From positions 1-27,422 of IMG/VR virus record IMGVR_UViG_3300034106_004115: 27,422 bases of DNA; one strand, written 5' to 3'. Both the position numbers and the translations under genes were made by a program. Shown piece after piece: positions 2,447 to 27,422 of the stretch; position 1 is the first letter of the stretch, and every line of letters begins with the position of its first letter. The DNA is from a virus. The notes under the pieces were generated by a model that saw only the letters and a program-made list of their open reading frames with translations, ran no database searches and was not told where the DNA came from.

Positions 2447-2663
2447 TTCTTATTCTTTTCTTTACCGCTCTATCTGCAGATTGTTTTTCTTTCTGCTGTT
2501 TTAATTTCTCATTTTCTTCTTCAACATGCTTCGCGACTAGAGAAATATACGTTTTTCTTTCCCAAGGCAGCATCGATTCTAGTTCATGTAATGAATAGTT
2601 ATGATACTGCATTAACGAGAAATTATTGAGGAAGTAATTCCTCAAACTCTCTTCACGAAGCAT
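2439..2663 (-). CDS. Small 74-aa protein after gp26; possible frameshift partner
   Basis: Its ATG (2663-2661) overlaps the gp26 stop as TAATG. No purine-rich Shine-Dalgarno precedes it: the upstream bases are a run of T, then CGAATA. The protein is charged and predicted helical, with a central LESMLPWERKTYISLV motif and a Lys/Gln/Glu-rich tail (EEENEKLKQQKEKQ). The Leu/Pro-Trp-Glu-x-x-x-Tyr pattern recalls small proteins next to tail assembly chaperones in other myoviruses; this is recollection, not a search. It occupies the place held in T4 by hub assembly genes between 26 and 29. Because it lies in the -1 frame relative to gp26, it could be made both as a separate protein and as a C-terminal extension of gp26. 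Function unknown. Confidence 0.75.
   Translation of the reverse strand: MLREESLRNYFLNNFSLMQYHNYSLHELESMLPWERKTYISLVAKHVEEENEKLKQQKEKQSADRAVKKRIRNG
2626..2645 (-). other. Perfect 8-bp hairpin inside the 74-aa gene
   Basis: TTGAGGAA (minus strand 2645-2638), loop TTAC and TTCCTCAA (2633-2626) form a perfect 8-bp stem with a 4-nt loop. It starts 23 nt downstream of the slippery heptamer at 2675-2669, which is farther than the usual 5-9 nt spacer for a frameshift stimulator. It could still matter for coupling or mRNA folding. Confidence 0.45.
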
Positions 2664-3382
2664 TATTCGAAAAAATCGAGAATACCCTCCAAGACAACAT
2701 CGTGTTCTTTGCTACATCTACCGCAAGTAATCTTACCAGTATAATGAAGTTTTGGTGCACTCTCAAAAAACTGCAAAATCTTTTTGTATTGATCTTGAGA
2801 TAAATTATCAATAAAGTCATTGAAATCTTTATCTGAAATATCCGTTACTGGATAAGTTTGTTCTGTATCAAAAACAAATTCAGTGCAATCCTTGATAATC
2901 TTTACAACTACATCGGAAGAATTGGTTTGAAGTTTAAGATTTTGCGCAGTTTCAAACGTCGGATATTTCAATTTAATTCCAATTTCATTTGTCAAGTAAA
3001 CTAATGGATTCACCTCTGTCATTTTTGCTGCAACGTTGAGAAGATCAACTTCTAGATCCATCTCATACCCACATTTTTTATCTTCGACTACATTTTGACA
3101 GATATAGGTAATTTCTACCTTTTCACCCATCGATCTTGCACGAAGATTGAGAAAGATATTTTCAACTTCAAACATCGGAAGTTTATCCAAATCAATCTCG
3201 TCAACTAGACAATTGTTGATCACTTGCTTGATCGTATCAACGATTTGTTTATAATCGTTCGATTCAAGAGCCATGATCAGAAGTTTTTCTTCTTTTACAA
3301 CAAATGGTCTGAATCGTAGATCTTTATTCTCTGATTTCAGATGCACACTATAAATTGGCAAATCAATTTTTGGTAAAGCCAT
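2663..3382 (-). CDS. gp26: gp26 baseplate hub assembly protein (T4_baseplate family)
   Basis: The protein has 239 aa (T4 gp26: 208). It begins with ALPKIDLPIYSV and continues with LRFRPFVVKEEKLLIMA, the typical opening of the T4 gp26/T4_baseplate family. Two Cys pairs, C95...C104 (CQNVVEDKKC) and C220-x-x-C223, with nearby H227, look like a split zinc ribbon. In T4 the product is needed for hub assembly and acts as a chaperone or minor hub component. It lies between a gp54-like gene (2-nt gap) and the 74-aa gene (TAATG overlap), in a hub operon. Its 3' end carries an in-frame slippery heptamer, so a longer -1 product is possible. Identification is by recognised N-terminal motif and context. 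Confidence 0.8.
   Translation of the reverse strand: MALPKIDLPIYSVHLKSENKDLRFRPFVVKEEKLLIMALESNDYKQIVDTIKQVINNCLVDEIDLDKLPMFEVENIFLNLRARSMGEKVEITYICQNVVEDKKCGYEMDLEVDLLNVAAKMTEVNPLVYLTNEIGIKLKYPTFETAQNLKLQTNSSDVVVKIIKDCTEFVFDTEQTYPVTDISDKDFNDFIDNLSQDQYKKILQFFESAPKLHYTGKITCGRCSKEHDVVLEGILDFFE
2669..2675 (-). promoter_or_regulatory. Candidate -1 ribosomal frameshift site at the end of gp26
   Basis: The last sense codons of gp26 are GAT TTT TTC GAA, then TAA. In the gp26 frame this gives T TTT TTC, an exact X XXY YYZ slippery heptamer, one codon before the stop. A -1 slip would read CGA ATA ATG and continue in the frame of the 74-aa gene, giving a fusion of about 314 aa (238 + 2 + 74). This arrangement resembles the G/GT frameshift of tail assembly chaperones. 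No strong stimulator lies at ideal spacing. Confidence 0.45.
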
Positions 3383-23936: not shown

Positions 23937-24161
23937 ATGAAAGTAAAGGTGAAAGATAGAGAAGATTTAGTGCGTGATATGCGCACAATGGCTATTTTAA
24001 ATGTTGATAAAAACATTTTAGGAAAAGATGCTCAATATAAACAAAGAATGAATCGCGATAAGCAGATAGATAATGCGATAAATAAATTAGAAAACGATGT
24101 TCATCAAATTAAAGGAAGTCTTGATAAAATACTTCAATTATTGGAGTCTAGAGGTCCGTAA
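23937..24161 (+). CDS. Small 74-aa coiled-coil virion protein
   Basis: A charged 74-aa protein. The N-terminus is [20 protein letters not shown], followed by LNVDKNI and a helical tail ([24 protein letters not shown]) with hydrophobic residues spaced as a coiled coil. Short proteins opening MKVKVKxREDLVRD commonly precede fibre genes in T4-like aquatic phages; I recognise the pattern but know no proven role. The neighbours suggest a structural or fibre-assembly protein, perhaps a trimerising adaptor. It starts 2 nt after the 902-aa gene, and its stop overlaps the collagen-like start (TAATG) with a GAGG upstream, so all are translated as a unit. Confidence 0.8.
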
Positions 24162-24889
24162 TGGCTAATGCAAATATTTCGTCGGTTGTTTTAACTAACA
24201 CATTCAATGAGTGGCGAGTTGTCACAAATAATTTAATCACAGACCGAAACACGCTCCGTAATACAAATTATGTGAAAGATGGTGGCGATTTTTCAGTTGC
24301 CAATGGATCTCTAACCATTCAAAAAGATGGTGGTGGCACTGTATTGACAGTTGCTAATGATGCAACGATAAGCGGAAACACTACAACCAATCGTCTTACT
24401 GTGACAACTGGTGCAAATGTTGCAACATTGAATGCATCATCAGTTGCAAATGTTGCAAGTTTAGACATTGTTGCATATGGTAAAGTAATTGCAGCCAATG
24501 GTTCTTGGATTGGTCCATCTTCTGGATTAATCGGCAACACTGGTCCGCAAGGTCCACAAGGTCCAGCAGGATCAAATGGAGCTGCTGGTCCACAAGGACC
24601 ACAGGGTCCACAGGGTCCAGCAGGATCAAATGGAGCTGCTGGTCCACAAGGACCACAGGGTCCTCAAGGAGTTGCTGGTCCACAAGGTCCACAAGGTCCT
24701 CAAGGACCACAAGGTGCTACTGGTCCTCAGGGTCCACAAGGACCGCAGGGTCCACAAGGCGCAGCAGGTCCATTACTCGCCAATGTGTTTATCCATAGAA
24801 CATCAACTTATGATAGCGCAAATGTGTACGTTTCCGCCACAGCACCTTCCAGTGGCAACCTCAAAGGTGACATCTGGATTCAGTTTTGA
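24161..24889 (+). CDS. Collagen-like fibre protein
   Basis: A 242-aa protein. The N-terminal 120 residues are beta-rich and hold [18 protein letters not shown], which resembles the attachment segment of aquatic-phage fibres (xxNTFxxWRxxTN). Residues 125-205 are 27 unbroken Gly-X-Y triplets, mostly GPQ with [12 protein letters not shown] and GAT, predicted to form a trimeric collagen-type helix. A 35-aa C-terminal part follows ([20 protein letters not shown], ending KGDIWIQF). The motif [14 protein letters not shown] resembles fibre ends that contact other proteins. GC rises within the repeat through CCA and GGT codons. Likely a tail or side fibre stalk; receptor unknown. Confidence 0.85.
24533..24775 (+). 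repeat. Collagen GXY tract (27 triplets)
   Basis: Contains a perfect 50-bp direct repeat at 24560-24609 and 24614-24663 (period 54 bp, 18 residues). The period is a whole number of triplets, so gain or loss of one unit keeps the frame and lengthens or shortens the stalk. Confidence 0.85.
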
Positions 24890-25742: not shown

Positions 25743-27422
25743 ATGACTCTTAAAATTCGCAGAGGAACTAATGCTGAACGATTGACAATCACTCCTGAAG
25801 AGGGTGAGTTAATCTTTACTACAGACACCAAAAAAGTCTTTATTGGTGATGGTAACACAGCAGGTGGTCTTGTTGTTTCTGACACTGGTAATACCAACGT
25901 CGCTGCGAATGGAACTTCTACAAATACGAGTTTTTTAAACTTTATCAATACGGCAAGTATTGCGGTCAGCGTTACTGCCAATGGAACAGGATACACAAAC
26001 GTTGCATTTACTACACTCGGTGGTGTGGGTGATGCATACAATCAAGCAAACACTGCGCGCGGAACTGCAAATGACTCTTATGGACAAGCAAACGCTGCGC
26101 GTGATCAAGCCAATACCGCTAGAACACAAGCAAATACTGCTCGAAATACAGCAAATGCATCTTACGCTGCGGTAAACACTGCATTTGATCAGGCAAATAC
26201 TGCTCGAGATACTGCAAACAATGCATACGCTGCCGCAAATGCTGCTGGTGGTGGTAGTGGAGCATATGATCAAGCGAACACTGCTCGAAATCAGGCTAAT
26301 TCTGCACGCGATCAGGCAAATACTGCTAGAACAACAGCCAACGATGCATATGGAGCAGCGAATAATAGAGTGTTGAAAGCTGGCGACACTATGACTGGCA
26401 ATTTGAACATTGCAGCAACACTCATTACTCAAAACATCGTTCCAAATTTGAATGTAACTTACAACATTGGTGCCAATGATTTCAGATTTAATGATCTATG
26501 GTTGAGCAATAGCACCATTTATATTGGTGGCGCAAGCATCTCATCGAATGCCGATGAAGTTAGAATTAGTAAACTGAATGTAGCAAATCTACTTACTGCA
26601 AGTGGAATCAATGTTTCCGCTCAGGCAGCTGATGCATATACTCAAGCCAATAACGCATATGCAGCTGCAAATGCTGCTGGGGGTGCTGGTGTTGCTAATG
26701 CATACAATCAAGCAAACAGTGCTCGAGATCAAGCGAATACTGCATACACTCAAGCAAATAATGCAAGAAATCAAGCAAACAATGCATATGAATCCGCAAA
26801 TACTGGAAAAGATACTGTTCGCGTTTCGCAAAATAATCAAGGAATTTTATCTGAAAAGCAATTAAATTTCGTCAACACCTCAACAGTTACAGTTTCGATC
26901 ACTGATTCTGGAAATGGTAATGCAAACATTGCATTTACGGCGACTGGTGGTGGTGCTGCGGCTTACGATCAAGCAAATTCTGCGCGCGACCAAGCCAATA
27001 CAGCACGCACTACTGGCAATAATGCATATGGTCAAGCCAACACCGCTCGCGACACCGCTAATGCTGCATATGCCGCAGCAAATAGTGCAAGTGGCGCAGA
27101 AGCGGCAAATCTTGTTGCTGTGTATGCAAATAACTCACTAGTATATGCCAATTCAAACGTAAACTTTAATAATACTGCTACAATTAATATTAGTGTAACA
27201 GCAAATACAACGAATAAACGTTCAAATATTGCATTTAATGCAAATACTACGAATCTCGGCGCAACAATCATCTATAGTCAGAATAGTTACTCTGATTGGA
27301 GCCCAGGAATTGCTGGTGCTATTTCCAATAGCGCAACTTCAACTAACAGAACATTTGAAAGCAGATTAAGAGAATATGTAAGTGTTGGTGACTTTGGTGC
27401 TGTTGGTGATGGTGTAACCGAC
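25743..27422 (+). CDS. Long tail fibre / tailspike, 3'-truncated
   Basis: Open to the window end (560 codons, no stop). ATG 25743 follows GGGG at 25733-25736. The first 40 residues (LKIRRGTNAERLTITPEEGE, IFTTDTKKVFIGDGNTAGG) match the Mtd-type N-terminal fibre domain. Three blocks of AY-x-QAN-x-AR heptads (about 97-209, 293-354 and 406-456) should form trimeric coiled coils and alternate with beta segments of pattern N-x-T-x-V-x-VT-x-x-G. The classic fibre motif LKAGDTMTGNLNI is at about 212-224, and RFNDLWLSNSTIYIGG at about 250-265. The last residues (YVSVGDFGAVGDGVTD) are the opening of pectate-lyase-type beta-helix tailspikes. This suggests a depolymerase or receptor-binding spike beyond the window. 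Receptor and enzyme activity are not determinable here. Confidence 0.9.
   Translation, partial: MTLKIRRGTNAERLTITPEEGELIFTTDTKKVFIGDGNTAGGLVVSDTGNTNVAANGTSTNTSFLNFINTASIAVSVTANGTGYTNVAFTTLGGVGDAYNQANTARGTANDSYGQANAARDQANTARTQANTARNTANASYAAVNTAFDQANTARDTANNAYAAANAAGGGSGAYDQANTARNQANSARDQANTARTTANDAYGAANNRVLKAGDTMTGNLNIAATLITQNIVPNLNVTYNIGANDFRFNDLWLSNSTIYIGGASISSNADEVRISKLNVANLLTASGINVSAQAADAYTQANNAYAAANAAGGAGVANAYNQANSARDQANTAYTQANNARNQANNAYESANTGKDTVRVSQNNQGILSEKQLNFVNTSTVTVSITDSGNGNANIAFTATGGGAAAYDQANSARDQANTARTTGNNAYGQANTARDTANAAYAAANSASGAEAANLVAVYANNSLVYANSNVNFNNTATINISVTANTTNKRSNIAFNANTTNLGATIIYSQNSYSDWSPGIAGAISNSATSTNRTFESRLREYVSVGDFGAVGDGVTD
26031..26369 (+). repeat. Heptad coiled-coil block 1 of the fibre
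   Basis: About sixteen 7-residue units such as AYNQANT, ARDQANT and ARNTANA, broken by an AAGGGSG hinge. DNA is repetitive with a 21-bp period. Confidence 0.8.
26619..26806 (+). repeat. Heptad coiled-coil block 2 of the fibre
   Basis: Units AYTQANN, AYAAANA, a Gly-rich hinge, AYNQANS, ARDQANT, AYTQANN, ARNQANN, AYESANT. Shares the same register as block 1. Confidence 0.75.
26958..27110 (+). repeat. Heptad coiled-coil block 3 of the fibre
   Basis: Units AYDQANS, ARDQANT, ARTTGNN, AYGQANT, ARDTANA, AYAAANS, ending at a GAEAAN helix. Placed between the second and third beta segments. Confidence 0.75.

Follow-up and report, generated by a model that had tools for sequence, protein, structure and literature searches.

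A predicted programmed -1 ribosomal frameshift at the gp26-gp51 junction of a T4-like myophage and its relatives

In the stretch of viral DNA analyzed here (27,422 nucleotides of record IMGVR_UViG_3300034106_004115; the window), the junction between the gp26-family gene and the gp51-like reading frame behind it is very probably a programmed -1 ribosomal frameshift site, with gp26 and a predicted 314-amino acid (aa) gp26-gp51 fusion as the short and the long tail assembly chaperone. Most ribosomes would encounter a stop one codon after the heptamer T_TTT_TTC and release gp26 alone, and a fraction would shift by one base in the -1 direction, read past the stop and produce the fusion. The slip would occur by tandem re-pairing of tRNA-Phe, from TTT TTC to TTT TTT. 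RNA structure downstream probably aids it, as does an upstream Shine-Dalgarno (SD)-like element of the kind known from bacterial dnaX. The helical C-terminal tail of the long form probably engages the tape measure protein, and in T4 the same two products would be made from two paralogous genes, 26 and 51. The slippage and its rate, the role of each stimulator and the functions of the proteins are what we infer from the comparisons described below. A frameshift fusing gp26 to a 74-aa protein had been suggested in a preliminary description of the window, and comparison with related phages strongly supports that suggestion.

The virus record, 27.4 kb in length, comes from a T4-like myophage, and members of the tail tube cap, DNA end protector, tail tube and gp26 families were found in it. 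Its gp26-family gene (positions 2663-3382, minus strand; 239 aa, the TAC-N-like short form) encodes a protein matching PF12322 (T4_baseplate) with an E value of 1.7e-57 and phrog_150 with 5e-67. The 3' end of the gene reads, in frame, TTG GAG GGT ATT CTC GAT TTT TTC GAA TAA, so that the slippery heptamer T_TTT_TTC (2669-2675, minus) lies in the X_XXY_YYZ register and a single sense codon, GAA, separates it from the TAA stop (2663-2665, minus). Among the roughly 8,300 codons of the likely genes of the window, this is the sole in-frame T_TTT_TTY, and the only other in-frame T_TTT_TTN lies 882 codons from a stop; the placement of the heptamer is not due to chance. The extension entered by a -1 slip (2439-2668, minus) is gp51-like, with matches to phrog_634 and the C-terminus of phrog_150, and includes a 74-aa open reading frame (ORF) in the -1 frame (2439-2663, minus), whose ATG at 2661-2663 shares its A with the gp26 stop. 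The predicted slip product comprises 238 + 2 + 74 = 314 aa with the junction FFRIMLR. The preliminary description had reported the heptamer with its register and its distance of one sense codon from the stop, a 74-aa gene in the -1 frame with its ATG overlapping the stop, and a fusion of about 314 aa joined at FFRIMLR, all of which agree with the sequence. Its 74-aa protein stands as the -1 frame partner; it is, however, the tail of gp51 and not an unknown gene, since matches to phrog_634 (baseplate hub assembly catalyst; E 8e-21) and to the C-terminus of phrog_150 (E 5e-4) identify the ORF, at the level of protein families, as the C-terminal part of gp51. The lack of an SD sequence before the 74-aa ATG had also been mentioned, and indeed none is present, but as several other genes of the window lack one as well, this absence is weak evidence. 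Directly after the predicted chaperone pair follows a 587-aa gene (683-2446, minus), which is likely the tape measure gene; its product gave weak matches only to PHROG tape-measure families (E 0.007 and 0.016), and its counterpart in phiM12, located one ORF further on, is annotated as similar to tape measure proteins. Elsewhere in the window, the last ORF (25743-27422) consists mostly of degenerate repeats of the type YDQANTARDQANTAR, is tail-fibre-like and runs off the contig end, and a collagen-like stretch (GPQGPQGPQ..., 24161-24889) occurs within a putative virion protein of 242 aa.

Conservation of the heptamer in related phages had been set beforehand as a test, and for this comparison loci were selected by their gp26 sequence without regard to the heptamer, and also taken from named phages, a few contigs being fetched twice. 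Of 212 complete gp26 loci, which range down to about 30% identity, 206 carry an in-frame T_TTT_TT[C/T/A] at the same place near the end of the gene (TTTTTTC in 179 loci, TTTTTTT in 26 and TTTTTTA in one). Thinning of the 206 heptamer-bearing loci to less than 70% identity left 73 representatives, and because this thinning began from loci with the heptamer, 206/212 is the fair estimate of its frequency. A stop exactly one codon past the heptamer is present in 197 of the 206 loci and in 64 of the 73 representatives. The codon preceding TTT ends in T in all 73 representatives, compared with about 63% expected from codon usage, although the residue encoded varies (S, D, N, R, G). When internal Phe-Phe pairs in the genes of the relatives were inspected, 5 of 92 were written as T_TTT_TTY, as against a slippery heptamer in 73/73 at the junction (Fisher p = 2e-41, the 73 having been drawn from heptamer-bearing loci). 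The six loci without heptamer belong to T4, Acj61, a Gelderlandvirus, Vibrio phage K452 and two Ackermannviridae; later additions beyond the 212 were two more Ackermannviridae and Vibrio phage D493, which lack it, and PVA23 and DSL-LC02, which have it. The -1 gp51 frame is kept without a canonical heptamer in the four Ackermannviridae (L119, L120, L225, L226) and in the Vibrio phages K452 (L118) and D493 (L227); all six have, one codon before the stop, a single run of TTTTC or TTTTT, and some have a TAATG overlap. These heptamer-less phages may employ a one-tRNA slip or re-initiation.

The -1 register of the downstream gene, which the preliminary description had likewise named as a test, is conserved as well. 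The core motif of gp51 (YSL...ELE..MxPWERxxY) is found in the -1 frame, and in no other, in 200/200 loci where it is recognizable, and in 70 of 72 representatives its distance from the slip is 24 codons. Conservation in the -1 frame begins right at the slip, with R at 63%, L at 63%, H at 69% and L at 93% within the first nine codons. Public records either begin gp51 at an internal codon or leave it out, because start codons near the junction are often missing, and a joined gene was present in none of the records examined. Among the Kyanoviridae records examined, L111 and L125 included, none has a joined CDS, and the gp51 extension either carries no annotation or begins at an internal start codon. 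In Aeh1 (L113, NC_005260), T_TTT_TTC and an open, unannotated -1 gp51 extension are located on the minus strand just after gp26. In a comparison of 26 genomes, gp51 of cyanophages was described as no more than about 20% as long as other gp51 proteins and gp51 was described as missing in Aeh1 (Sullivan et al., 2010; PMC3037559). Both the short cyanophage gp51 and the absence from Aeh1 would be explained by a frameshift that had gone unrecognized.

An element that the preliminary description had missed lies just upstream of the heptamer. The window bears the full SD-like sequence TTGGAGGG (2685-2692, minus), with 9 nt between the element and the heptamer. For the 73 representatives, predicted pairing with the anti-SD was strongest where the 7-nt window ended 7-10 nt short of the heptamer, with a mean of -5.9 kcal/mol at 8 nt, and at this peak pairing with the 3' end of 16S rRNA exceeded that of synonymous controls by up to 2.3 kcal/mol; no comparable excess occurred elsewhere in the 40 nt upstream of the heptamer. 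Codon choice at the element is biased accordingly, the Glu codon being GAG in 32 of 46 cases against a background of 25% (p = 5e-10) and the preceding Leu codon ending in G in 33 of 48 cases against 28% (p = 2e-8). With a distance of 21 nt to the ATG of the 74-aa ORF, the element is, judged by its spacing, too far away for initiation at that codon and well placed for slippage, and it is probably a stimulator of the slip in the manner of bacterial dnaX.

Downstream of the heptamer, an 8-bp perfect inverted repeat, TTGAGGAA-TTAC-TTCCTCAA (2626-2645, minus), begins after 23 nt. This hairpin had been noted before and is present, enclosed in a longer, imperfect predicted stem-loop (2613-2655, minus) that begins about 13 nt after the heptamer; in close relatives it can fold in L003, whereas in L009 and L010 it is partly broken, and the 8-bp hairpin was rejected as the main stimulator since these two keep only part of it. 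In locus L001, whose gp26 is identical to that of the window, the 60 nt after the heptamer are predicted to fold to -13.1 kcal/mol. The longer stem-loop is a possible stimulator in the window, where the downstream structure is farther from the heptamer than usual. Across the family, 45-nt windows were clearly more stable than synonymous controls only if they started 0-24 nt past the heptamer, and the mean z of this trend was -1.3 at 6 nt and near 0 at 30 nt. In the cyanophage-rich P-SSM2 clade, a hairpin of 11 bp begins 5 nt past the heptamer and displays compensatory changes, such as T-A, G-C and A-T at one pair and C-G, T-G and T-A at another; 83% of its cells pair, compared with 27-48% in slid registers. 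S-PM2 (L126) has a perfect 14-bp stem about 9 nt after the heptamer, unlike the P-SSM2 hairpin in sequence and similar in place. Taken as a family-wide feature, downstream RNA structure probably assists the slip.

T4 offers a view of the same proteins in another genetic arrangement. Its gp51 (249 aa) matches PF12322 over residues 1-201 (E 4e-52) and phrog_634 over residues 147-246, and its gp26 consists of the gp26-family domain alone; genes 26 and 51 are separate and divergently transcribed. In a joint alignment, the gp26 domain of T4 gp51 continues without interruption into the extension where the heptamer lies; at this point the predicted fusion reads FFRIMLREESLRNYFLNNFSLMQYHNYSLHELESMLPWER and aligns with a stretch of T4 gp51. 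On the basis of this alignment, T4 gp51 is a paralogue of gp26 that is collinear with the predicted 314-aa fusion. The gp26-family profile matched a single gene in every one of six frameshift-phage records (83-233 kb), among them a 173-kb relative of the window (L008/G001) and the 233-kb Aeh1 (G004), and two genes in each of two T4-type phages; no second full-length gp26-family gene was found in L008/G001 or the five other frameshift records. T4 and Acj61 have a separate full-length gene 51 and no heptamer at the end of gp26, and the window, which is a fragment, contains one gp26-family gene. One gene with the frameshift and two without it suggest, for this small sample, that recoding and duplication exclude each other.

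The role as tail assembly chaperone, which the preliminary description had proposed, gains in plausibility from the collinearity with T4 gp51 and from the predicted fold of gp26. An AlphaFold model of gp26 from the window (40 sequences aligned) was confident, with a pLDDT of 89.5, and its best Foldseek match in the PDB was the HK97 tail assembly chaperone 2OB9, a weak match with an E value of 1.0. Structural realignment of residues 1-95 gave Z scores of 8.0 for 3FGX, 7.7 for 3KLU and 7.5 for 2OB9, with rmsd values of 3.9-4.0 over 84-85 residues, followed by 5IR0 at Z 5.1 and then by a clearly unrelated structure at 2.4. We take 3FGX and 3KLU (YqbN) to be prophage tail chaperones. As the Foldseek E value is only 1.0, the resemblance of the modeled N-terminal domain of gp26 to the HK97 tail assembly chaperone (TAC fold) is supportive and not proof. 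A sequence-profile search of solved structures gave nothing relevant. In a model of T4-type gp51 the extension is formed by helices, and no chaperone appeared among the top PDB matches of that model, which was not counted as evidence against the assignment. From these comparisons we infer that the two products act as short and long tail assembly chaperones.

A different explanation of the junction would be translational coupling, in which ribosomes terminating gp26 at TAA would start again at the overlapping ATG (TAATG) and give the 74-aa gp51-like product as a protein of its own, the run of T residues merely reflecting a conserved Phe-Phe pair. The TAATG overlap is indeed kept in the window and its closest relatives (L001-L010), and the heptamer-less Vibrio phages K452 and D493 and Ackermannvirus Gloob carry it too. 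However, coupling by itself is very improbable: within the first 12 codons of the -1 frame, ATG, GTG and TTG are all missing from 25 of 72 representatives and ATG is missing from 39 of 72, unlike the window, which does have an ATG for its -1 ORF, and yet -1 frame residues are conserved from the slip onwards; the codons around the Phe pair are fixed beyond what the amino acids need, and the SD-like element lies at an unsuitable distance for initiation. Since TAATG is kept in L001-L010, re-initiation could also yield a free 74-aa protein, that is, a gp51 C-terminal protein made in the clade of the window in addition to the frameshift fusion. Heptamer and TAATG occur together and are each kept in these loci, and this pairing recurs in the Vibrio phages CZ01 and PVA23; on the other side, a free gp51 tail has no known role and most of the family would be unable to make one from the junction position. 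We regard the operation of both processes as rather unlikely, though much less so than coupling alone. Re-initiation at TAATG may thus be an addition in the clade of the window and cannot explain the family.

Homopolymer runs are prone to sequencing error and T4 gp51 is continuous, and it might be argued that gp26-gp51 is truly a single continuous frame in which the length of the T-run was miscalled, or a pseudogene. This explanation has practically no likelihood. The same layout recurs in the separately sequenced S-PM2, P-SSM2, Aeh1, phiM12, pf16 and Mosig and in about 190 loci from viral contigs, a breadth of independent sequences that refutes it, and gp26 has its own conserved stop one codon past the heptamer.

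The predicted frameshift can be compared with several known systems. The window and T4 share the same protein families, with gp51 collinear with the predicted fusion, but T4 has two genes and no heptamer whereas the window has one gene and a predicted frameshift. As with lambda G/GT and P2 E/E', a -1 shift shortly before the first ORF ends would yield two forms, one short and one long, with a likely tape measure gene downstream; by sequence, however, those proteins belong to another family, and the resemblance is at the level of the fold only, to the HK97 chaperone. The slip heptamer of lambda is GGGAAAG, in contrast to T_TTT_TTC in the window. In E. coli dnaX, the -1 signal consists of an internal SD-like element, which precedes the slip site A_AAA_AAG by about 10 nt, and a downstream hairpin. 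Sequence evidence for an SD-like element at about this distance was found here, whereas gp26 differs in having a U-run in place of A_AAA_AAG, in a hairpin that varies between clades and in its unrelated function. A dnaX-type hairpin 5-9 nt downstream, with compensatory changes, is present in the P-SSM2-like clade; the stem of the window, at about 13 nt with its 8-bp core at 23 nt, is partly conserved. In a 2025 article, tail chaperones of Vandenendeviridae and Andersonviridae are described as undergoing a -1 frameshift at a GTTTTT slip site into an uninterrupted -1 frame, the -1 part being usually misannotated as a separate hypothetical protein (PMC12846349). These are other phage families, likened to the present case by a poly-T slip site, the uninterrupted -1 frame and the misannotation.

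The preliminary description knew of no described case of frameshifting for T4 gp26, which is probably wrong. According to two later articles (PMC10885494 and PMC12846349), a role of T4 gp26 and gp51 as tail assembly chaperones was put forward by Vladimirov, Gautam and Davidson (2022, Virology 566:9-15). The PRFect paper reports from that work that some T4-like phages, in place of frameshifting, rely on two genes, a short one and a long, fused one (PMC10885494), and the Adele paper refers to it as the source for the poly-T slip sites that T4-like phages have in TAC-N genes (PMC12846349); the passages concerned name no gene numbers. A direct description of the T4 gp26/gp51 or the cyanophage frameshift was not found in the PMC literature, a search outside which the 2022 article lay. 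We take the genes of that article to be 26 and 51, partly because the description given of them matches the T4 gp26/gp51 architecture. The SD-like element, the covarying hairpin and the contrast in copy number are possibly new details.

Tentatively, and with appreciably less assurance than for the frameshift itself, we propose that T4-like phages outside the lineage of T4 (Kyanoviridae, Schizotequatrovirus, Aeh1-type, Emdodecavirus, Otagovirus and pf16) may share one ancient dnaX-like signal, composed of an SD-like element, a T6 heptamer and often a nearby hairpin and undescribed as a whole, that makes gp26 and a gp26-gp51 fusion, and that the lineage of T4 may have exchanged recoding for gene duplication. 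If this is true, genes 26 and 51 would be the fossil of a frameshift, and the ancient shared signal would account for why gp51 looks "truncated" in cyanophages and "missing" in Aeh1. The frameshift itself would provide a clear mechanism of tail assembly for an abundant group of marine phages and a simple correction for annotation, namely a joined gp26-gp51 gene. It would also represent a traceable case in which a recoding signal was traded for gene duplication, with T4, whose tail is the best studied, on the duplicated side.
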